A stretch of DNA of 13,995 nucleotides from Candidatus Woesearchaeota archaeon (lineage in GTDB: Archaea; Nanobdellota; Nanobdellia; Woesearchaeales; UBA12501): NCBI GenBank assembly GCA_016203375.1, contig JACQMX010000067.1, positions 1 to 13,995 on the forward strand. The letters are read 5' to 3'. Position 1 is the first letter of the stretch, and the number at the start of each line of letters is the position of its first letter. Positions 2,772 through 13,696 of the stretch are shown one piece after another. The notes under the pieces are model-generated. The model ran no database searches and was not told where the DNA came from. It worked only from the letters and a program-made list of their open reading frames with translations. Position numbers and translations under genes: made by a program.

Positions 2772-3674
2772 TTATAACCGTTTAAAGGCGTCTCGAATCG
2801 CTTCCTGAGTAAAATATTGTTCAAGCTGACTATGTAGTTGAGAATCACTATATCCTTGCGCGCGAAAGTGTTGAACATACGCCTTGATTTTGAGAAGATC
2901 AAGTTTTTCAAAGGCGCCACGAAGCTCTCCTTCTGAATGGTATTTTCGCAATTGAGCAATAATCTGCTTATCAGAAAGGCCTGTCGTACGATACTGAGTG
3001 ATAACAGAAATAAGTTGGGTAATGGTTTCCTGAGAAATAATGGGATGGCGCTTCTTGACATAGGCCAAAATCAAACCGCTAGTGACAATAATAATTGTGA
3101 TGAGAACCCCGATAACAATTAAAAAGAAACGGAGAGAAGCAGGTTGAGAAGTTGGTTGTTGAACAGCAGGAAAGATAGGAAGCAGGGTTGAAGAAAGCAT
3201 GGATGTATTTGACGCTGTTGATTCAGAGACAGAAGCATTTACTGGAACAACAACGTCGCGCGTGATATTGCTAAGGATAGTACCCTCATAAACAAGCGAA
3301 GCAGTAAGAAGGTATGTTCCTGGTTCTAGAACGATATGAAGATCAAGAATAGGATAATCAATCGCAACATCATAACCGAGCATGGTTTCGTTATTAAAGA
3401 TGATGTCGGTGAGAGGGTCACCAAGCAAAGCGGTAAGATTCCCAGTATAATTCATTCCATCAATTTCCACAAGAACTGTTGTTCCAGCAGGGATTTGCTG
3501 GCGATCAAAATGAATTATAGTATCAATAGGCGAGGCTATTGTTCTTGCAGTATAATAGCGAAGATTGAGAAATTTAATCAGCATAAGCATAGAAGCAAGG
3601 AGAATCAAGATTAAAAAAATTTTGAGAATACTCATCTCTGCCCGTTTCAACCAACCCAAAAATACAATGGTCAT
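2772..3674 (-). CDS. Two-TM protein with glycosylated outer domain and duplicated cytosolic helical module
   Basis: This 300-residue protein has no recognised family. A hydrophobic segment at about 15-38 anchors or exports it. Residues about 45-145 are beta-rich and Ig-like (GTTVLVEIDGM, EPGTYLLTASLVYEG), and six N-glycosylation sequons (N75, N79, N95, N136, N146, N156) place this part outside. A Ser/Thr/Pro-rich stalk (147-180) leads to a second TM (182-206) ending in VKKRH, so the C-terminus is inside. Two consecutive repeats, about 224-258 and 266-300, share G-[LY]-SD-x-Q-[IL]-x3-L-x2-Y and end in AF(E/K)(K/R)L. The same unit ends the neighbouring subtilase. The ATG at 3674 follows a weak GGGG (3680-3683) and has a TATA at 3715. 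ATG at 3635 (MSILKIF) is a possible shorter start. It is probably transcribed separately from the protease but works in the same place. Confidence 0.8.
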   Translation of the reverse strand: MTIVFLGWLKRAEMSILKIFLILILLASMLMLIKFLNLRYYTARTIASPIDTIIHFDRQQIPAGTTVLVEIDGMNYTGNLTALLGDPLTDIIFNNETMLGYDVAIDYPILDLHIVLEPGTYLLTASLVYEGTILSNITRDVVVPVNASVSESTASNTSMLSSTLLPIFPAVQQPTSQPASLRFFLIVIGVLITIIIVTSGLILAYVKKRHPIISQETITQLISVITQYRTTGLSDKQIIAQLRKYHSEGELRGAFEKLDLLKIKAYVQHFRAQGYSDSQLHSQLEQYFTQEAIRDAFKRL

Positions 3675-3734: not shown

Positions 3735-6221
3735 TTATTTTTTTCTAGCGGCAAATGCCCGTTGAACCTCCTTAGATTTAAAGAATTTCAAAAGATGCTG
3801 CATTATCTGCTCTTCAGAATACCCTTCTTGTGTCCATTGGTTAATGCATTCACGAATGGTTTGTTGATGCCGGATAGCAGTAAGAGGATTGATAACGCCA
3901 TAATAAAACGAAAACCCGAGGAAACTTGCTATGAATAGAACGAGAATACCCCATCCCAGAGCAAAGAGAAAAATATTGGACTGTGGGATAACTTCTTGTA
4001 TGGTTCCTTCAGTCGCGACAATTGTCTCTTGTTCGTGTTGAACAATATCTGGTCCTGCTTCAAGCGGCGTCGTTGATGTTATCGAGGATGACGCTTCTTT
4101 ATCAGCCGATTGGAGGCTTGTCGTTGAACTTGAAGAGGCTGTTGTTGTTTCCTTTTTTGGAGTATTAGTGTTGCCTCTACTTCGCTTCCCATCACTTCCC
4201 TTATCACTCCCTGAAGAAGGTTGAAGGATGGCAACAGTTGGTAAACTGTTATTGATGTAGATGCTATCATTTGCTTCAAGTGTCTCAAATGCACTTGCCG
4301 TACAGCTCACATTCCAATCATAACTGGCTGTGGCGCTAAAGTTTCGAGAAAAAACATACCATGTTTCATTAAAGTTCATCGAGAATGATTCATTAGCAAA
4401 GAAGATGCTGCAATTACCATCAGAAATAGGGGCGCCGCTCGTACGATTAGTATAGTTGGCAAAAAATGAAATGTTTTCCGAGGTACGTTTGTCTAAGCCT
4501 TCATCATTTTGATCAGAAATAGTAAGATTTGCATTAATTCCAGTGGTAAAAGAGGTGAAGTGCACAACACGCACGGTAAGGTTTCCTGCATCATAACTTA
4601 TAACATTGCAGAGCGGAGGAGCACAGAAAACATTATTTATAAGAACGACAGGGGTTGTTCGAAAAGATAAATTGGAAAAATACAGATCTGCGGATGCGTT
4701 AAGATGATGACACTTACTATCCGTTGTGTTTATCTCAATAAAGTTATGTTGAATCTTGGTGCAATGTTGGATATTGGTCATGTCAACATCACTAATAAAA
4801 GTGATGCTCCCAAAGTCGTTCTCGACACGATGCGCATCTCGGTTAACTATAGAAATCATCCGAAGTGCCGCCCAAACATCAATGCGAGGATAACCATTAA
4901 TAACAGGAGAGTAGCGGTTCAAAAGCGTTTCAATATCTTGTGGCGAGAGAGTGAAGTTTCCCTTGCGTTTTGCATAATGCTGAAGCAAAAGCGCGGCGCC
5001 TGCAACATGGGGTGCAGCCATGGAAGTACCTGACATCGTCACTGTACCGCCGCCCAAAGCAGCAGAGACAATAGATGTTCCTGGAGCAAGAAGATCGAGA
5101 AGTGGTCCACGATTAGAAGATGAATGAATAACCTCCTCCGTATCCGCAGTTGTTCGAGCAACACTCGTTACATTGGAAAGGCAACTAGGATAAGCAATTC
5201 CTGAGGCGTCTCCACCATTTCCAGAAGCATCATCAAAGAAAATGTTCATGTCATGCGCTGCGTTAACCGACGCGGCAAACGCCAAATCCGAGTTATCGCA
5301 ACTTGCCTGGTTACTAAACAACACGCCACTGCCAAAACTTGCAGTAATGACACTAATGTTGTACGTCTCTTTATTTGCAATGCAGAAATCAATTCCCGCT
5401 AATGCGTCTGGAGAGTCACCAATACCTTGCGAGTCCATAAAACGAACAGCAACAATGTTTGCCTCTGGCGCAACACCAAGGAGACTTCCATCACGAGCCG
5501 CGACAATGCCCGCAATATGCGTTCCATGACCGTTGCTGTCACGAGCATTTCCTGTTTGATTTTCCAAACCGTTAGGACAGCAACCAACACCATCTCCCCG
5601 TGTTCCATCAATATCACAATAACACATCTCCGCTAAGATTTTTCCTTGAAATGCAGGATGGGTGCTGTCAATACCTGTATCTATCACACAAACGGTTTGC
5701 CCAGAGCCATTAATGGAGACACCTTGAATCGACAGAGTATGGACAAGTGTTGCATTAATCCGCGGTCGACTGCTATCTAGCGCTAATGAAAAGCGTTGGG
5801 GAGAAACGATATTGGCAACCCTTGGATTTTTTTCAAGATCTTCAAGACCTTTGGATGTTACCGTTACCGCAAGCGTGGGAATAGTTTCATACGTAATGGT
5901 GATATTAGTAGTGGAAGGATCAATATGCATCTTGAATTTTTCTTGCTCTCTTCGGATTATGTCTTTTCGTGCTTTAAGGTCATTGGATGGTATATCCTCC
6001 GTGCCTTTGAGTACCACAATAACCGTCGTTCGATTTTCAGTTTCATCAGGGGGGGTTTCTTTAGCCGACCCTTTACCTTGACCACCAGTCGCGTGGCCAG
6101 TAATTCCTCCATCCAACCTTGGATGGGCAAAAAGACTCAGTAAGAACAAAGAGCCAAAGAGAAGGATAGAAATCAAGAGAAAATGAATTGCAGCCTTACG
6201 GGTGGAGGAAGTGTCACGCAA
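3735..6221 (-). CDS. Membrane-anchored subtilisin-like serine protease (S8 family)
   Basis: An 828-residue exported protease. In order: signal or anchor segment (11-31); I9-type inhibitory prodomain (about 66-148); and catalytic domain with Asp181 (VCVIDTGID), His232 (NGHGTHIAGI), oxyanion Asn335 (ASGNGG) and Ser400 (GTSMAAPHVAG), so all catalytic residues are present. A cysteine cluster, CYC (200-202) and GCCPNG (213-218), is inserted between Asp and His. Beta-rich Cys-containing domains (about 465-660) follow, then a Ser/Thr linker (670-725), one TM (about 750-775) and a cytosolic tail (786-828). The tail has the same G-Y-S-x2-Q-I-x3-L unit as the 2772 protein. About 23 N-glycosylation sequons lie outside the TM. 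The start is TTG, preceded by GGTGA (6228-6232) at a six-base spacing; an ATG slightly upstream stops after six codons. TATA at 6265. It may process neighbouring surface proteins, but this is inference. Confidence 0.93.
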   Translation of the reverse strand: MRDTSSTRKAAIHFLLISILLFGSLFLLSLFAHPRLDGGITGHATGGQGKGSAKETPPDETENRTTVIVVLKGTEDIPSNDLKARKDIIRREQEKFKMHIDPSTTNITITYETIPTLAVTVTSKGLEDLEKNPRVANIVSPQRFSLALDSSRPRINATLVHTLSIQGVSINGSGQTVCVIDTGIDSTHPAFQGKILAEMCYCDIDGTRGDGVGCCPNGLENQTGNARDSNGHGTHIAGIVAARDGSLLGVAPEANIVAVRFMDSQGIGDSPDALAGIDFCIANKETYNISVITASFGSGVLFSNQASCDNSDLAFAASVNAAHDMNIFFDDASGNGGDASGIAYPSCLSNVTSVARTTADTEEVIHSSSNRGPLLDLLAPGTSIVSAALGGGTVTMSGTSMAAPHVAGAALLLQHYAKRKGNFTLSPQDIETLLNRYSPVINGYPRIDVWAALRMISIVNRDAHRVENDFGSITFISDVDMTNIQHCTKIQHNFIEINTTDSKCHHLNASADLYFSNLSFRTTPVVLINNVFCAPPLCNVISYDAGNLTVRVVHFTSFTTGINANLTISDQNDEGLDKRTSENISFFANYTNRTSGAPISDGNCSIFFANESFSMNFNETWYVFSRNFSATASYDWNVSCTASAFETLEANDSIYINNSLPTVAILQPSSGSDKGSDGKRSRGNTNTPKKETTTASSSSTTSLQSADKEASSSITSTTPLEAGPDIVQHEQETIVATEGTIQEVIPQSNIFLFALGWGILVLFIASFLGFSFYYGVINPLTAIRHQQTIRECINQWTQEGYSEEQIMQHLLKFFKSKEVQRAFAARKK

Positions 6222-6316: not shown

Positions 6317-7705
6317 TTAATAATATGTTTGGCCGCCTTGAACAGCCTCTTCTTCCTCGTCTTCGCCCTTCTTTGCCCGAGTAAAGGCAACGATAAGGCC
6401 AACGATGACGAGGATGATAACGATCACGATAACCGCGATCTCAAGGCCACGAGTCAAGCCAACGCCTTCATTAGCAGGCTCCACCACATTTGCGGTAACT
6501 GGTACTTGCTGAAGTACTTCGTCACCAGACTTGATGTCTAAGGTGAATGGATGACTGCCAGTTGTAGCGTCTTCCTTCGCGGAAACATAGACATACGCTG
6601 TCTCTGTTTCCCCTGGGGAAAGCAGCACCACATTGCTTGGGCTGATTTCCACAGTCGCGAATGTGTCAACGCCGCTGACGCCGATGGTGTATGACTTGGA
6701 TGTCGAACCATCATTGGTCAGCGTCAGTGGATAGATGACGCCACCTTCGCCGCGGAGAACATCCTGGCTCTGTGGGCCAACACTGACAAGCGTCTTGCCT
6801 GACTTCTTCTTGGATGATGTTGAATCGGATGATTCATCGTCTTCGCTTGCAGCACTAGGTTCACCGACAACTTCAACAGGAACCGTTTTTGTAACCGTTC
6901 TTGTTGATTCATCGTATTTTACAGTAACTACCATATTGTATGTACCTGCTCGTGCACTGGAAGGAACGGTGAGGAACAATTCTTCACTGGACTCTTCCTC
7001 ATCAGCCTCAAGTTCATCGATGAAATCAACTGCGCTAACGCCAAGTTCAGGGATGCTCACTTCAACGCGAACATCCTCTTCGTCCATCTCGCCTAAGTTG
7101 TTCACGCGAACAATAGGCAAGAGGCTTCTTCCCGCGCGCACTTTTCCGCCATTTGAGGAAAAGAACACATCCTCGATAACGAGCTGATGGCGCTGGGAAT
7201 CCATATGAACTGGATAGTTGTAAGATTTGGTGTATCCCGTTCTGCTTGCGAGAATGACACGGAGGAAATAATTGTCAGACTCAAATACTTCAGGGACTTG
7301 TAAGCGGAGGGTTACGGTTGTTCGCTCATTGGCATCGAGATTAAAGTTACCTGAAGAATCGGAAACAAGGAAACGTTCGTCACCGAATAGAATAGCGAGG
7401 ACTTGAACATCATCAACGTCATCCTCTGCTTCAACACGGACCTTGACTTCAAGTTCTTGACCGCGGTCAAGACGTTCCGTAATGCCGGTGCCTGTTTCTA
7501 CTTCGTCACCATTGACCTCAACACGTACAACCTCAGCTGGCAGTTCAGAGCCAACATTGAGGAGATCTGGCTGGTCTGAAGATTCAGTCGATTCTGTAGT
7601 AGACCTGTCTTCAAACTCAACTTGCGCGTTTGCAACGCCAGCAGCCAGAATAGCTACTATGAGCAGCAAGACGGCACAAATGGCCTTCATTTGTCGCTTA
7701 AACAT
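6317..7705 (-). CDS. COG1361-like surface protein with C-terminal membrane anchor
   Basis: A 462-residue exported protein. Signal peptide 1-27, with likely cleavage after VANA. Three beta-sandwich modules follow: about 50-170, 175-285 (VRVEVSIPELGVSAVDF, then SARAGTYNMVVTVKYD) and 303-407 (NDGSTSKSYTIGVSG, SPGETETAYVYVSA). The first two resemble CARDB-like domains and the third is NPCBM-associated/COG1361-like. An acidic Ser/Glu/Asp linker ending in KKK lies at about 280-302. A TM at 421-441 is followed by the cytosolic acidic tail TRAKKGEDEEEEAVQGG ending in Tyr-Tyr. No N-glycosylation sequon is present, unlike its neighbours. The ATG at 7705 is chosen over one 18 codons upstream because GGAGGTAA (7711-7718) is the strongest SD in the window. 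A strong SD, an A+T promoter and repeated GAGTAAT boxes suggest an abundant, regulated protein, perhaps an S-layer or wall component. The exact role is unknown. Confidence 0.85.
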   Translation of the reverse strand: MFKRQMKAICAVLLLIVAILAAGVANAQVEFEDRSTTESTESSDQPDLLNVGSELPAEVVRVEVNGDEVETGTGITERLDRGQELEVKVRVEAEDDVDDVQVLAILFGDERFLVSDSSGNFNLDANERTTVTLRLQVPEVFESDNYFLRVILASRTGYTKSYNYPVHMDSQRHQLVIEDVFFSSNGGKVRAGRSLLPIVRVNNLGEMDEEDVRVEVSIPELGVSAVDFIDELEADEEESSEELFLTVPSSARAGTYNMVVTVKYDESTRTVTKTVPVEVVGEPSAASEDDESSDSTSSKKKSGKTLVSVGPQSQDVLRGEGGVIYPLTLTNDGSTSKSYTIGVSGVDTFATVEISPSNVVLLSPGETETAYVYVSAKEDATTGSHPFTLDIKSGDEVLQQVPVTANVVEPANEGVGLTRGLEIAVIVIVIILVIVGLIVAFTRAKKGEDEEEEAVQGGQTYY

Positions 7706-7710
7706 CGTAT

Positions 7711-7718
7711 TTACCTCC
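7711..7718 (-). promoter_or_regulatory. Strong SD that sets the start of the 6317 gene
   Basis: GGAGGTAA on the minus strand is spaced five to seven bases from ATG 7705. It decides against the longer open frame, which begins at 7759 inside the untranslated leader. Confidence 0.85.
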
Positions 7719-7768
7719 AATAAACTTCTTCGCATTAGGAAGGAATGGTAACCCCCCAAACCTTCATT

Positions 7769-7894: not shown

Positions 7895-10618
7895 TTATGG
7901 TTCCATGATCCAAATAACACGATTTCTGAAACGAGTTATATCATTGTTGCCAGCGCTAATGTGCACATCATACTCGCCAGGCTCCGCGTACTCCGGCACT
8001 TCTAAACGAACAACTGCAGTATCCACTTCGCCGATAGACAAATCAAATGGGCCTTCATAGCGACGGACAGCTAGATCTGGAATAGCAACGGAAACACGAA
8101 CATTCTCAAGCTCACGATGGCCATTGTTTTCCAAGGTCAATCGCATGACGACATCACTTCCCGGATATGCTGTTTCCATGCCAGCAAGACTGGTGAGTAC
8201 AATTCTGCGAATAATCAGTTCATCGCCGCGCTCTTCCTCTTCACCAACAGTAATGTCAATGAAAGCAGTGTCATAGTCGCCATCCTCATCAGTAACAGTA
8301 AGTGTGACGGTGTACGTGCCATCATCTTCATAGTAATGGAGCGGACTTCTCTTGGTGCTCGTGTCACCATCGCCAAAGTCCCAAAGGAAAGTAAGATCCC
8401 CATCGCCTCCGGTTACTGAAGCGGTAAATGAGACATCGAGCGGAGCCTCGCCTGCAGTTGGTTCTGCGCTTATTGAAATCACAGGTGATGTACCCTCAAT
8501 AGGAGGAACGGTGGTGTTAACTGTAAATGTGAAATCGGTAGATGCAAAAGCGCTGTTGCCAGCGGCATCGACACATTCCACATTCCATATATATGTCCCC
8601 TGAGGCACACTCAACATGCCATCGGATAAACTAACTCCCGTCAAAGTAAATGTGTTCAAATCACTAAAATTTGTGAGTTCATCGAATATGAAGTGATGTG
8701 CAGTCTGCGTTGCTTCAAAATCAATACCATTGATATTAACATGCAAAGTGCAGCTTAGCGTAGTGTCAACATTGTCGAGCACAAAATAAGTGAAATTAAC
8801 TGAGGATGAAGTTACTGTTTCGCCGTTTTCTGGCGTATTCAAGACAACAGTCGGTGCTTCAGTATCTGATATATCACAGACATCACCAACACCATCACCA
8901 TCAGCGTCCGTTTGATCGGCATTATCATCGACGCCAAGTTCATAAGTTAAATCGCCATCGCCTAATGGGCAATTATCAACATCATTAGTAACGCCATCGT
9001 TATCATTGTCATTATCACAAACATCTCCAGCGGCATCGCTGTCAAAGTCAAGTTGATCGGGATTGTTATTCAATGGACAGTTATCAAGCCCAATGCACAC
9101 GTCGCCAACACCGTAACCATCTCCATCTGGATCGTAGCACGCTACATCCGAATCGCACGCGTCACCGACACCATCAATGTCGGCATCGTTTTGATCAGGA
9201 TTAAAGTCTACTGGACAATTATCAGGACCCAAACATGATGCACCAGTGCCGTATGCATCGCCATCTGGATCGTAGCACGCGACATCAGGATCACAGGCAT
9301 CGCCAAGGCCATCACTATCTGTATCTTCTTGTGCTGGATTAAAGTCAGCAGGACAATTGTCTACACCAAGGCATGCCGCGCCATCACCATAGCCATCGCC
9401 ATCAGTATCAGCGCAGAAATCCGCGTCACAAAGATCGCCTACTCCATCGGCATCTGCGTCGGTTTGATCAGGATTATTATCTACAAGTGGATCATAAACA
9501 TCATCGCCATCGCCATAGGGACAATTATCCGCATCGTCTGCTGCACCATCATTATCATCATCACTATCGCACACATCGCCAGCGACACCCATGTCAAAAT
9601 TTTCTTGATCGGGATTGTACACATCATTACAATTATCTGGACCGTCTAAAATACCATCATTATCATTGTCATCATCGCACGCATTGCCTAGACCATCGCC
9701 ATCGGTGTCCGTCTGACTAGGATTGGCAATGAGGTCACAATTATCAGGACCGTCAAGAATATTATCATTATCATCATCAGTATCACATGCATCGCCGGCG
9801 CTACCACCATCTGCATTTTCTTGGCCAGGATTTGCTACAACATTACAGTTATCCGGCCCATCAGCAACGCCATCATTATCGTCATCGCTATCGCAAGCAT
9901 TACCTTGGCTGTCTCCATCAGTATTCGTTTGGCTTGGATTAGAATTGGAAGGACAATTATCTGGCCCCGCGCAATCATCGCCTAAGCCATAGCCATCACC
10001 ATCAAGATCAACGCAGACAAGTGGCTGTTCTTGAATGGTTGTTCTCGCATCACCAGGAACAGCGATATCCGTTGGGTACGATGGCACATAAACTTTGCAC
10101 CGCCACGTTTGATCCACAGAGGTATAAGAAGCAGGAAGGGGATTTGCCTCGATCGGTGTATCAGTAACACCAATGCGATCCCATTTGTAAATGTAGAATG
10201 GATCAGCTTCACCATTAACACGACAGGTAAGCGCATCATCATCATATGCAGGATCGGGAGTAATGCTAATCTCAAGCTCTAGCTCTGGTTCGCCAGCAAT
10301 GGATACTTGTGCGGATCCTGGCACCGCGATGTCAGATGGATATGAAGGAATGAATACTTTACATCGCCATGTATCGCCTTGCTCCGTATTGCTTGCAGCG
10401 AGAGGATTAGATTCAACAGGCGTATCGGAAACGCCAACCTTATCCCATTGGTAAATATAGAATGGATCATTCACGCCATCAACAAGACATGTTAACAAAT
10501 CACCAGTATCTGGTGATGTTGGCGTAATGGAAATTGTCTGCGCAAAAGCGCTTGCGCTAACAAAAATGAAGGTAAGCAAAAACAAAAAGAGTTTCGTTGC
10601 TTTTGTCAATTCATTCAC
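7895..10618 (-). CDS. Secreted TSP3-repeat protein with Ig-like, PKD and CARDB domains
   Basis: A 907-residue exported protein. Signal peptide about 1-26 (ends SASAFA). Two near-identical Ig-like modules (28-107 and 117-196) each have one Cys pair and a conserved YIY-WD, TWRCKV and PSYP-DIAVPG pattern. Nine thrombospondin type 3 units (203-582) of the form DNCP-NP-Q-D-D-DG-GD-CD form a Ca-binding, disulfide-linked wire. A beta-sandwich (588-702) is followed by a PKD domain (712-792, WDFGDG 746-751) and a C-terminal CARDB/COG1361-like domain (798-905, NVRVSVAIPDLAV). There is no C-terminal anchor. The gene abuts the barrel gene with no spacer (TAG then GTG), so the two are surely co-transcribed. 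GTG at 10618 is one start. TTG at 10609 (codon 4) has a better SD, AGGTGA at 10615-10620, and still gives a full signal peptide. Likely an extracellular Ca-stabilised adhesion or scaffold protein; its partner is unknown. Confidence 0.9.
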   Translation of the reverse strand: MNELTKATKLFLFLLTFIFVSASAFAQTISITPTSPDTGDLLTCLVDGVNDPFYIYQWDKVGVSDTPVESNPLAASNTEQGDTWRCKVFIPSYPSDIAVPGSAQVSIAGEPELELEISITPDPAYDDDALTCRVNGEADPFYIYKWDRIGVTDTPIEANPLPASYTSVDQTWRCKVYVPSYPTDIAVPGDARTTIQEQPLVCVDLDGDGYGLGDDCAGPDNCPSNSNPSQTNTDGDSQGNACDSDDDNDGVADGPDNCNVVANPGQENADGGSAGDACDTDDDNDNILDGPDNCDLIANPSQTDTDGDGLGNACDDDNDNDGILDGPDNCNDVYNPDQENFDMGVAGDVCDSDDDNDGAADDADNCPYGDGDDVYDPLVDNNPDQTDADADGVGDLCDADFCADTDGDGYGDGAACLGVDNCPADFNPAQEDTDSDGLGDACDPDVACYDPDGDAYGTGASCLGPDNCPVDFNPDQNDADIDGVGDACDSDVACYDPDGDGYGVGDVCIGLDNCPLNNNPDQLDFDSDAAGDVCDNDNDNDGVTNDVDNCPLGDGDLTYELGVDDNADQTDADGDGVGDVCDISDTEAPTVVLNTPENGETVTSSSVNFTYFVLDNVDTTLSCTLHVNINGIDFEATQTAHHFIFDELTNFSDLNTFTLTGVSLSDGMLSVPQGTYIWNVECVDAAGNSAFASTDFTFTVNTTVPPIEGTSPVISISAEPTAGEAPLDVSFTASVTGGDGDLTFLWDFGDGDTSTKRSPLHYYEDDGTYTVTLTVTDEDGDYDTAFIDITVGEEEERGDELIIRRIVLTSLAGMETAYPGSDVVMRLTLENNGHRELENVRVSVAIPDLAVRRYEGPFDLSIGEVDTAVVRLEVPEYAEPGEYDVHISAGNNDITRFRNRVIWIMEP
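8873..10012 (-). repeat. Nine thrombospondin type 3 units in a two-block order
   Basis: The DNC of each unit falls near residues 220, 256, 292, 328, 364, 420, 466, 512 and 548. Units 2-4 (short, D-x-DDDND-DG start) and units 6-8 (long, with a CYDPDGDGYG-like start and an extra Cys) are distinct classes, and unit 1 resembles the long class. Units 5 and 9 carry the same insertion after DNCP (GDGD-Y-LGVD/PLVD then N-DQTDAD). The order is therefore long-short3-inserted then long3-inserted, pointing to block duplication. Acidic residues sit at alternating positions as in known TSP3 Ca sites. Confidence 0.88.
10031..10537 (-). repeat. Tandem duplication of an Ig-like module
   Basis: Residues 28-107 (10298-10537) and 117-196 (10031-10270) align without gaps over most of their length. 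They share ISITP, DPFYIY, TDTP/SDTP, NPL-AS, TWRCKV and PSYP-DIAVPG. The similarity is clear at the protein level, indicating a fairly recent internal duplication. Confidence 0.85.
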
Positions 10619-10620
10619 CT
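10615..10620 (-). promoter_or_regulatory. SD-like AGGTGA at the operon junction
   Basis: AGGTGA on the minus strand overlaps both the TAG stop of the barrel gene and the GTG start of the TSP3 gene. It is ideally spaced (five bases) for the in-frame TTG at 10609-10607. GAGGT at 10632 region, inside the barrel gene's last codons, could serve the GTG instead. Translational coupling is likely either way. Confidence 0.5.
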
Positions 10621-13600
10621 AAAAGCGAACCTCAAGACCGCCATTGACATACGGCGTTGTTGTGCCATCTACCGGATTGCGTACATTACTTCGATCGGCA
10701 TCAACAGGTATGTTGGATTGCAGATATGCACCAACATGTTTGAGATCAAGGCGATCGTATAATCGCAGCATGCCTGTCTCTCTGTCATAGCCAACGAGCA
10801 ACAAGTTCGTGAGCTTGCCTGTTGGGCTCCATCGCAAGCCGCCTTGCAACAACGTGTTATCAAAAGTGGTCTGATTATCATTGACTTCCGCGCGTTGTGT
10901 CTCATGCGTCCACACGGCGCCAACAAGCGGCACATACTTGCCATTGGCAAAGCGCAAGCCAAGGTTACTATCAAGAGTTAAGTAACGAGACGCGAGGTGC
11001 GTAACCTCACTTTCGCTTCTGCCGCCAAAGGCAACGTGTTCTTCTGTGTTTATGCCATCATAACGAGCAGCAGTCTCTAAAACTGCTCTGCGGTATCGAG
11101 CAGCAACACCGCCCTCGACACCTAAACCAAGATGATCACGTTCAGTGAGCAATGATCGCTCGGTGCCATCTGGCGCGTCAGGTAAGGACGCATCGACGGC
11201 TCCATTGCCGATGAAACCGCGACCTAAAGCATACGCGCGGAAGGCATTGCCAGTATTGCGAGAACGAACTCGAAGCTCGCCACCGAGACCAACACCAACA
11301 AGATTATCAGTGATATCTTGTACATGACGATCATTAACATCTACACTGCCATCCTGACGCTGGTATTCAATACCAAATAGTGTAGCAAGCCAATCCCGCG
11401 CGCCAGTATCCAATCGACCAACGCCGGAAAGATTGAATTGCTGCACATCAATATCAGCTTCGCTGCCTGATGTTGGTCGTGTCATGCTAACGGTAGTATA
11501 ATCAAGACCAAGTTGCACATGCGCGTTATCGCTTGTGTCGCCAGGCATGCGATGGGTACCAAGGAAGGTATCCGCGCTCGCTTCCGCTACATGCTTAGGC
11601 GCGGGCCGTGGAATTGGCGCTGCACATACAGCTACCTCAAATGTTCGATTGAGTGCATTAGAACTTCCTTGCCGACGGAGATATTCGATAAGCGTTGTCT
11701 GACTTGATACGCGCACTGGCGTGTTGAAATCGTTTGCAGTGCCGAATGGCTGAGCAGGATCTATAGTTGCACCCACGCCAACAACATCCGCTCTGGTTTC
11801 GATGCTGGCGTCAATGCCTTCTGGCATGAAGACAGCATCCGTATTGCTTGGCACGCATGCTTTTGGAGCGCCAAGTTCGAAGCGTTGCATAATCCCGGTA
11901 GCACCTGCATATTGCGCCACAACAGTGCCGAGAGCGCTATCAGGAATTTTATCAAGAACTGTTTCGAATGCGCGCGCACGGAAGGATGTTCCGCCAGGTT
12001 GTTTGTCCTTTGCCACAACAACATATGTCTTACCCGGTTCAAGCGTTGCCTGAGCATTGCCATCTTCTGCGCTAGCAGTCGAAGGTAATGTCTCGCTGAC
12101 TCGGAAGAGTTTGCCGTCATTAACAAATTGATCGAGCATGGCAGTGGTAAGCGATGCTAAAGAAGCGCGTGTAACCGCAGCCTTCGAGCCGGCAGGTGTT
12201 ACTGCATAAACGTCTACCGCATCACCATTATTTGGCGTTGTATCTGTATTCTGCGTTGATGTAAATTGGTATGCTGCACCGCCAGAAACAACAGGAAGCG
12301 TATCACCAAGAGTAACTGATGTATTTCCTCGGTGAGCTTCAACATCGCCAATGGTGTCTTCAATAAGTTTGAGTGCCGTTGGGTTTGCGCGTTCATACGT
12401 TACGACCGAGGGTGAATCTGGGCGGATAAAGGTCGCAGGCACATCATAGCCATAGGTTGGTTGATTAGACCTATTTGGCAACCAAAGAACATGACGATTT
12501 CCGCCGACAATATTTTTCAGGCCTTTTTCTTTTGCCTTTTGATTGAGTTTATCGCGAGTTGCATTATCTTTGGCTCGAATATCTTGAACAACGTGCATGC
12601 CGCCCCGTGTTCCGTAGACAACTTCAAAGTCGCCTGGTTGCGCGACAGCCTCATTATTCATGTACCATTTATTCATGTTGCGAGCAGCCTCAAATTTCAA
12701 CACAGTAGAAACCCATTGCTCAAGTTCTGCGTCTTTGGGCGCACCGGTTTTTCCGACGATGCCGAATAAAGTATCGCATCGGTAGAGCGCTGCAATGGTC
12801 GTATCGAGAGAAGCGTTGCGACCACTTGGTGAGCCGATGTCCGAAGGCTGAACGAATGTGTATGCGCGATCTTGCGTTCCATTAGAAAGCGCTACAACAA
12901 ATTCCGTTGTTGCGATAGGGAAAGCGACACAACCGAGATTGCGCTGATAACGATCAGGTAATCCTGCATACAATGCCTGAAGATGCTCGACAACAGTGGA
13001 AGGAGCATTTGAGCCTAAACCAACGACCATCGCTGCAGCACGCTGTTGCGCTGGTGTTGGAACGGCAGGAACAGGTGCAGCTGGAGTTGGAGCTTGAGCG
13101 ACGGCTGGAGTTGCTGGTGCAGCTGGAGTTGGAGTTGCAGGAGTTGCTGGTGCAGCTGGAGTTGGAACTTGAGCGACGGCTGGAGTTGCTGGTGCAGTTG
13201 ACGTTTGAACAGGAACTGCAGGAGGCGCTTGCGTGTAGTTCTGCGCTAACACGCCAACAAGCACGGTTCGTAAGGCCTCATTTTGTCGAGAGCCACCGAG
13301 AAGACTTGGCTCAAACACAGCGCGTTTATCTAATGGAGATCGTGTTGGTTGAGAATCAACAATGTACAATCCAGAAGGTTGCTTATCACTGTTGCGAAGA
13401 AGTGGTTCAACGATATGTTGACTTTTTACTGCATCTTTATCAAAAACGCCTACGCAATATTGTCCTTTGTTCCCGTAGATCGTAAAATTTGCAGTATCGC
13501 CAGAACCAGTGTGAAGGTGCGTGAAATCAGTATCAGGAGTGTTGTCCTTATTTGTATCGCATTTCAGTGTTTGTGGTCGAGCAGCTTCAACGGGAGCGCT

Positions 13601-13696
13601 CGCGCCAAATATCGCGCCACCAACAACAAGTCCCGCAGCCTGAGCTAATCGCTTTGGAGAAGATAACCATGCTAAAAGTTCGTCAAGCCCCTTCAT
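10619..13696 (-). CDS. Large exported protein with a C-terminal outer-membrane-type beta-barrel domain
   Basis: A 1025-residue protein. Signal segment about 13-38 (ends APVEA-A). Residues 40-154 form an unassigned domain with C46 and C81. A Pro/Ala/Thr linker (155-217) is followed by a long unassigned region (218-700) with Cys at 256, 307, 614 and 691. From about 722 to the end, the chain is a run of amphipathic strands of alternating polarity joined by short turns and longer loops. Examples are NLVGVGLGGELRVRSRNTGN, GLGVEGGVAARYRRAVLET and NLGLRFANGKYVPLVGAV, and about 12-14 strands can be counted. The last residues, VNGGLEVRF, match the bacterial outer-membrane beta-signal: C-terminal Phe with hydrophobic or Gly residues at -3, -5, -7 and -9. 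No alpha-helical TM is visible. ATG 13696 follows GGGAGG (13705-13710). First gene of an operon with the TSP3 protein. The barrel call is inference from pattern; the protein could instead be a beta-rich surface fold. Confidence 0.8.
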   Translation of the reverse strand: MKGLDELLAWLSSPKRLAQAAGLVVGGAIFGASAPVEAARPQTLKCDTNKDNTPDTDFTHLHTGSGDTANFTIYGNKGQYCVGVFDKDAVKSQHIVEPLLRNSDKQPSGLYIVDSQPTRSPLDKRAVFEPSLLGGSRQNEALRTVLVGVLAQNYTQAPPAVPVQTSTAPATPAVAQVPTPAAPATPATPTPAAPATPAVAQAPTPAAPVPAVPTPAQQRAAAMVVGLGSNAPSTVVEHLQALYAGLPDRYQRNLGCVAFPIATTEFVVALSNGTQDRAYTFVQPSDIGSPSGRNASLDTTIAALYRCDTLFGIVGKTGAPKDAELEQWVSTVLKFEAARNMNKWYMNNEAVAQPGDFEVVYGTRGGMHVVQDIRAKDNATRDKLNQKAKEKGLKNIVGGNRHVLWLPNRSNQPTYGYDVPATFIRPDSPSVVTYERANPTALKLIEDTIGDVEAHRGNTSVTLGDTLPVVSGGAAYQFTSTQNTDTTPNNGDAVDVYAVTPAGSKAAVTRASLASLTTAMLDQFVNDGKLFRVSETLPSTASAEDGNAQATLEPGKTYVVVAKDKQPGGTSFRARAFETVLDKIPDSALGTVVAQYAGATGIMQRFELGAPKACVPSNTDAVFMPEGIDASIETRADVVGVGATIDPAQPFGTANDFNTPVRVSSQTTLIEYLRRQGSSNALNRTFEVAVCAAPIPRPAPKHVAEASADTFLGTHRMPGDTSDNAHVQLGLDYTTVSMTRPTSGSEADIDVQQFNLSGVGRLDTGARDWLATLFGIEYQRQDGSVDVNDRHVQDITDNLVGVGLGGELRVRSRNTGNAFRAYALGRGFIGNGAVDASLPDAPDGTERSLLTERDHLGLGVEGGVAARYRRAVLETAARYDGINTEEHVAFGGRSESEVTHLASRYLTLDSNLGLRFANGKYVPLVGAVWTHETQRAEVNDNQTTFDNTLLQGGLRWSPTGKLTNLLLVGYDRETGMLRLYDRLDLKHVGAYLQSNIPVDADRSNVRNPVDGTTTPYVNGGLEVRF
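10622..11533 (-). other. Predicted beta-barrel domain with C-terminal beta-signal
   Basis: Residues 722-1025 of the 10619 protein. Hairpins with tight turns DTGARD, NTGN, ANGK and SPTGK alternate with long polar loops, as in porin- or autotransporter-type barrels. Aromatic residues sit near strand ends (Y, W, F). The final residue is Phe, preceded by Leu-Glu-Val-Arg. Confidence 0.55.
13046..13234 (-). repeat. Pro/Ala/Thr-rich linker encoded by 75-base direct repeats
   Basis: Residues 155-217 are runs of PTPAAPATP and AVAQ. At the DNA level, about 50 bases starting at 13074 recur at 13149 with two mismatches, a 75-base (25-codon) offset that keeps the frame. Probably a flexible or O-glycosylated spacer whose length can vary by slippage or recombination. 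Confidence 0.75.

Follow-up and report, generated by a model that had tools for sequence, protein, structure and literature searches.

A barrel-type protein and its abutting partner

The stretch of DNA that we analysed (the window) is 13,995 nucleotides long and is the entire contig C35 of genome G000, which is 663 kb and 71% complete. It encodes a protein of 1,025 amino acids (Table 1). An earlier note on this DNA, made from the letters alone, had described an outer-membrane-type beta-barrel at 10619-11533, and these positions are residues 722-1025 and the stop codon of the longer open reading frame (ORF). A GGGAGG motif lies at 13710-13705, 8 nt ahead of the ATG. At the other end, the TAG directly abuts, with no gap, the GTG of the gene for a 907-amino-acid protein, which we call the partner protein. 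This contact had been noticed in the earlier note, and its further claim that the next gene carries the same kind of CARDB domain as the protein encoded at 6317 also holds (kinship E = 8e-5).

Table 1. Locations of features and what each rests on (positions without a contig or locus name are in the window)
Feature	Location	Strand	Basis or remark
Barrel protein gene, 1,025 aa	10619..13696	minus	ORF; codon usage like neighbours; GGGAGG 5' of ATG
Predicted signal peptide, residues 1-38	13583..13696	minus	By eye; hydrophobic stretch from residue 20; AxA-type end, ...ASAPVEA before ARPQ
Residues 39-681: Pro/Ala-rich linker (about 155-220) and middle region	11654..13582	minus	No family match; little or no alternation to about residue 650
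Barrel-type domain, residues 682-1025, about 12-13 strands by eye	10622..11653	minus	PF13505 match (E 1.6e-4); alternation (z 3.9)
C-terminal beta-signal YVNGGLEVRF (F at -1, V at -3, L at -5)	10622..10651	minus	Read from ORF end
Partner protein: secreted, 907 aa, TSP3 repeats, PKD, CARDB-like C-terminal domain	7895..10618	minus	Pfam; abutting GTG; no C-terminal transmembrane segment
CARDB-like C-terminal domain of partner protein	7895..8221	minus	Last 108 residues
Protein encoded at 6317	6317..7759	minus	NCBIfam "putative S-layer protein" PACE-CTERM-PROT model, E 8.9e-28, 97.3 bits, just under the cut-off of 110
S8 protease	3735..6221	minus	C-terminal tail GYS..Q(I/L)...L..(F/Y)F......AF (by eye)
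Membrane protein, 300 aa, neighbour of the S8 protease	2772..3674	minus	C-terminal tail similar to that of the S8 protease (by eye)
Secreted-looking protein, 245 aa	1912..2649	minus	Repeated SGRRCLxC motif; no Pfam match at E <= 0.1
SLT protein of the window's genome	G000:C98 (L144:66-1640)		SLT profile
SLT protein of the window's genome	G000:C109 (L145:1-1533)		SLT profile
PagL (lipid A deacylase family)	L006:1498-2154	minus	Lipobox-like N-terminus by eye
PagL (lipid A deacylase family)	L011:1498-2055	minus	Lipobox-like N-terminus by eye
PagL (lipid A deacylase family)	L013:1486-2025	minus	Lipobox-like N-terminus by eye

The C-terminal domain has a family match. PF13505 (OMP_b-brl) matches the whole 1,025-residue protein at E = 0.023 in a Pfam scan; given only residues 682-1025, it scores 22.3 bits, short of the curated cut-off (28.7). 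When these residues are reversed, or shuffled in five ways, they match no OMP family in Pfam; one shuffled version matched DUF4127 at E = 0.19. The comparison with Omp families that the earlier note had suggested thus gave one match, under its cut-off. The autotransporter profile (PF03797) was not matched by the whole protein at E <= 0.1 or by residues 682-1025 at E <= 10, where the filters of HMMER drop most weak matches. Residues 39-681 match no other family (Pfam E <= 0.1, NCBIfam E <= 1). The Pfam scan at E <= 0.1 found no SLH domain in the barrel protein, and a rough heuristic found no coiled coil.

The last 345 residues also show a period-2 pattern of hydrophobicity (z = 3.9, as measured against 2,000 shuffles). 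This alternation is restricted to the C-terminal third of the protein: 150-residue windows that start at residues 1-551 have z = -1.4 to 0.8, while those that start at residue 601 or beyond have z = 1.4 to 3.2. Among barrels from E. coli, the same measure gives 3.6 for FadL, 2.3 for OmpW, 2.0 for the barrel of OmpA, 1.0 for OmpX, 0.6 for OmpC, and 0.0 for OmpF (OmpC and OmpF fall below zero when only the last 250 residues are taken), and six other E. coli proteins range from -2.2 to 0.0. The alternation of the barrel domain is well above chance, but the measure lacks both sensitivity and specificity for barrels: 14 of 37 Ig/PKD-type partner proteins (discussed below) also reach z >= 2. An automatic scan of the domain found 17 amphipathic windows of 8 residues. 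Finally, the ORF does terminate in the VNGGLEVRF that had been pointed out, with phenylalanine as its last residue; its GGLEVRF is a beta-signal of the classical kind. Given the sub-cut-off match, the alternation, and this ending, we agree with the earlier note that the C-terminus is barrel-like and of the outer-membrane type.

We did not find any relatives of this protein by sequence similarity. With the whole protein or residues 690-1025 as the query (about 8,000 candidates scored for each), and with residues 663-1025 against viral contigs, genome contigs, and PDB sequences, we recovered only the protein itself; these searches are sensitive to close relatives only. A search of 145 relatives gave, besides the protein itself, just three matches of 17-18 bits, all inside the Pro/Ala-rich linker. 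AlphaFold2 without an alignment gave a pLDDT of 29.9 for residues 663-1025. For a syntenic family of six sequences (P0003/L075), the pLDDT was about 29; the strand pattern of that model resembles an eight-strand meander, which is no evidence at such a pLDDT, and Foldseek found no match to it at E <= 0.001. As for the literature, we found no report of barrels or porins in Woesearchaeota in the open-access papers searched, nor any report there of a porin in an archaeal outer membrane. For Woesearchaeota, Vigneron 2022 (PMC9723730) describes degradation of peptidoglycan and genes for tlyC-type toxins, and the word "barrel" is absent from its main text. Because no homologue was found, we used the neighbouring partner gene as a handle for comparison.

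Barrel-type proteins and the gene pair in Woesearchaeales

At E <= 1e-4, the CARDB-like domain of the partner protein has matches in 243 of the 352 genomes searched in the order. We considered 41 partner genes: the one in the window and those at 40 loci from these 243 genomes, the 40 being mostly the better-scoring matches with usable flanking sequence rather than a random sample. The CARDB-like domain is at the C-terminus of these proteins or within about ten residues of it, and none of the 41 has a C-terminal transmembrane segment. General scans of the partner protein gave no type IX secretion (T9SS) profiles among the Pfam and NCBIfam matches.

An upstream ORF is present at 37 partner loci. 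It is on the same strand in 36 of them, and in 33 of the 37 it is also within 150 bp, as compared to 116 of 183 for other genes at these loci (p = 0.001). Most of the upstream proteins have a hydrophobic, signal-like start, and they show similarity to each other in only four sets (L063 and L075; L069 and L080; L065 and L074; L089 and L091). Using a strict rule for the beta-signal, which was set after the sequence ends had been seen, we found such an end in 10 of 33 upstream proteins (the window's is left out, and the 33 are not independent because some are related to each other) versus 1 of 77 other ORFs (Fisher p = 1.7e-5) and 0 of 41 partner proteins. The signal is in 9 of the 31 upstream proteins that lie within 150 bp; at L101, another ORF lies between. 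A plain final phenylalanine separates the groups less well than the strict rule does (10 of 33 versus 9 of 77, p = 0.02).

In a Pfam scan of 34 upstream proteins, including the window's, OMP_b-brl was the only family to which two or more of them had a match (4 of 34). When the other 33 were cut down to their last 300 residues, OMP_b-brl matched four (L070, L082, L094, and L101) and did not match the other 29, and a coiled-coil family matched two. L094 (E = 1.5e-5, ending in AGIKYHF) is the only one of the four that is new relative to the genome-wide PF13505 search described below, as the other three were already in that set. For alternation, 9 of the 34 upstream proteins reach z >= 2; among the partner proteins 14 of 37 do so, and among other ORFs 3 of 59. 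We dropped a count of amphipathic strands, as it gave no separation (10 of 33 upstream proteins versus 12 of 37 partner proteins at z >= 2). The coiled-coil heuristic was too loose to support any claim: 34 of 77 other ORFs were positive.

Judged by eye, some 20 of these 33 proteins are barrel-like. The others, about a third (for example, L073, L078, L086, and L089), are not barrels and make up a different class with Gly-rich, helical, or Ig-type ends. Genes upstream of CARDB-ended proteins that by eye have no barrel traits include L073, L078, L079, L086, L089, L091, and L099, and several of these have a Gly-rich C-terminus. In two genomes from the window's own family, G004 (L077) and G006 (L109), a barrel-like protein comes ahead of a large secreted protein, which at L109 is cut before its C-terminus. 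An FAD oxidoreductase is divergent from the unit at 8 of 66 loci scanned (L071, L073, L089, L091, L097, L113, L116, and L119), and we take it, with its QCTG motif, to be of the geranylgeranyl-reductase type; only L097, L113, L116, and L119 have a barrel-like upstream gene. A similar FAD oxidoreductase lies beside L081. At L115 and L123, STT3/AglB adjoins the barrel gene.

When the order was searched genome-wide with PF13505, 22 of the 352 genomes had a match at E <= 0.01, of which 12 were at E <= 0.001 and 3 were over the cut-off. As the E-values are per genome, about 3.5 genomes would be expected by chance at the looser threshold and 0.35 at the stricter one. We do not count two of the 22 as archaeal barrels: L015 is bacterial-looking and L027 is not barrel-like by eye. 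The search misses proteins of this kind, as the window's own gene was not in the result (0 in G000). In a phylum-wide draw, 17 of 262 genomes had a match; 8 of these belong to orders of the class other than this one, with five at E <= 0.001 and one over the cut-off. Pooling the 22 from the order, L006, and the 8 from other orders gives 31 matches, or 28 that can be evaluated once L015, L027, and L012 (contig ends) are set aside. By a hand tally, a large secreted gene is next on the same strand in 12 of the 28, and there is none such in the other 16. In eight of the 12 (L008, L009, L016, L019, L021, L025, L028, and L128), Ig, PKD, TSP3, or CARDB content, or likeness to such a protein, was identified by a tool; the follower was judged by eye at L007, L018, L022, and L133, and the one at L022 has no Pfam match. 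At L016, a 118-amino-acid ORF lies between the barrel gene and the partner gene.

Another barrel family, PagL, has matches (E = 3e-16 to 2e-20) in three of 336 genomes, all from one family. The three contigs are 46, 9.6, and 3.1 kb, and contamination is possible for the two shorter ones. As far as we know, archaea do not have lipid A.

Which membrane the barrel would enter

To our knowledge, beta-barrel outer-membrane proteins are found in diderm bacteria, mitochondria, and plastids, always together with an Omp85 insertase. The window's genome (71% complete) has no match to Omp85/BamA. Across the order, 3 of 352 genomes have a match at E <= 0.01, all weak; one is over the cut-off and the other two have 17.5 and 15.1 bits. 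The one over the cut-off (L029) is a short fragment beside a truncated nuclease-like ORF, which is probably a misjoin. We found no convincing Omp85 among the 352 genomes. This outcome of a search that the earlier note had proposed argues against an outer membrane of the bacterial type that has BAM. The note's reading of a barrel-type domain in an archaeal genome is supported by the family match, the alternation, the beta-signal, and the gene order in a number of relatives.

We also found no TolC-type OEP in 24 genomes. Lytic-transglycosylase (SLT) domains are present in 15 of the 24 genomes searched, including the window's, which has two such proteins, one of them with what we take to be a twin-arginine-like start. 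As far as we know, archaea have no peptidoglycan. SLT domains are a mere hint of action on bacterial walls, because they may serve secretion or pilus machines (as the context of L147 suggests).

It seems very unlikely that the barrel gene reached this contig by chimeric assembly or bacterial contamination. It does sit at the contig end, and contaminants seem to occur in Woesearchaeales: besides the misjoined fragment at L029, L015 has a bacterial-looking OmpA-type gene. Nevertheless, the codon usage of the barrel gene gives no sign of a chimera (its distance is 0.09 to the partner gene, which is the closest, and 0.13-0.14 to the S8 protease and ahcY genes), and it forms an abutting operon with an archaeal-type gene. 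Furthermore, a barrel-like gene precedes such a surface gene in two genomes from the window's family (L077 and L109) and on contigs of at least 100 kb. The earlier note had also thought misassembly less likely; codon usage and a gene order that is common to relatives, some on long contigs, make both a chimera and a bacterial source unlikely.

Our main reading, to which we give a probability of about 0.5, is that this is a secreted protein with a C-terminal membrane barrel, that it belongs to a two-gene surface unit, and that the barrel acts where the archaeon touches a bacterial partner that is diderm. The signal-like N-terminus suggests that the barrel protein is exported. After a long extracytoplasmic region, the C-terminal domain would close into a transmembrane beta-barrel of about 12 strands. 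The gene is the first in a surface unit of two genes that is found repeatedly in Woesearchaeales, and the second gene encodes a large protein of the Ig/PKD/TSP3 type that has no membrane anchor at its C-terminus. The CARDB-like end of this partner protein may dock to the barrel protein, or to the surface in which that protein sits, with its Ig/PKD/TSP3 arms projecting outward. The barrel would be seated in or against the outer membrane of the bacterium, which would supply the BAM.

The family assignment and the gene pairing are supported, as judged from sequence. As for the membrane, we are leaning slightly toward that of a bacterial partner because no BAM was found, because the beta-signals have been kept, and because relatives have PagL (in three genomes) and SLT domains; the archaeon's own outer membrane is almost as likely. 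A point against our main reading is that nothing in the data shows delivery into another cell. As a broader and rather doubtful speculation, barrels of Woesearchaeales and related DPANN that do not have their own BAM might be placed in a bacterial partner's outer membrane by its insertase and might serve there as self-supplied receptors for giant CARDB-ended proteins.

Alternatively, the archaeon itself might have an outer membrane, or an outermost layer of lipid, in which the barrel anchors the surface protein and into which it is inserted without Omp85. We consider this possible, and we would still bet against it. A few archaea do have two membranes; PMC4243693 mentions Ignicoccus, ARMAN, SM1, and Methanomassiliicoccus. 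It would also fit that the CARDB-like domain is so common in the order and that envelope-type genes (the FAD oxidoreductase and STT3/AglB) lie beside some units. And by eye, L070 and L014 seem to start with a hydrophobic segment that leads through a short stretch resembling a coiled coil to a barrel, much like outer-membrane tethers (the coiled-coil heuristic flagged neither). On the other hand, neither a convincing Omp85 nor a TolC-type OEP turned up in the genomes searched for each. Omp85 is present in every barrel-bearing outer membrane known to us, and we know of no precedent for a cell that has its own outer membrane with barrels but no BAM.

It is also conceivable, if unlikely, that the domain is a beta-rich module of the surface layer, barrel-like or a sandwich, that never inserts into a membrane. 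AlphaFold2 did not produce a barrel, and an insertase was not found in these genomes; the alternation in many of the partner proteins is also what such a module would lead us to expect. But the domain matches a family of outer-membrane barrels, bacterial-type beta-signals are found in 10 of 33 upstream proteins and in none of the 41 Ig-type partner proteins, and OMP families (PagL and PF13505) have matches over their cut-offs in the same order.

The host is a tiny uncultured archaeon of a kind that is not known for an outer membrane, and the gene pair recurs in some of its relatives. If a large archaeal order does have barrels without Omp85, then either there is an unseen archaeal outer membrane with another means of insertion or these proteins are meant for a bacterial envelope. 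Either reading, if true, would offer a concrete way into the question of how these uncultured cells attach themselves to other cells and live on them.

Comparison with known systems

Ihomp1 from Ignicoccus hospitalis is a protein of an archaeal outer cellular membrane, as our candidate might be; it is described as having a mass of 6.23 kDa, forming oligomeric pores, and having no recognisable homologues in other archaea (PMC5468417).

Our impression is that the partner protein has something in common with the C-terminal-domain proteins of the type IX secretion system of Bacteroidota. These are also large secreted proteins with a conserved C-terminal Ig-like domain, and they work with outer-membrane barrels. 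In contrast to those systems, the barrel here is smaller and is in a two-gene unit.

Omp-alpha is an outer-membrane tether, as are OmpM and SlpA (PMC10628300 and PMC9388160). The barrel protein differs from Omp-alpha, OmpM, and SlpA in that it has no SLH match, has a Pro/Ala-rich linker, and has no coiled coil by our rough heuristic, and also in that archaea, as far as we know, have no peptidoglycan to which it could be tethered. What it would share with them is a barrel joined to a long stalk region, which in the tethers is periplasmic and connects the outer membrane to the wall.

Finally, consider the superfamily of bacterial outer-membrane barrels (PF13505, with the OmpA, OmpX, OmpW, and PagL types). 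Unlike these proteins, the barrel protein is archaeal, has a large N-terminal region and a CARDB-ended partner protein, and comes without a homologue in our searches or an Omp85 in its genome. Nevertheless, it shares with them a predicted signal peptide, alternating strands, a C-terminal aromatic beta-signal, and a weak match to the family profile.
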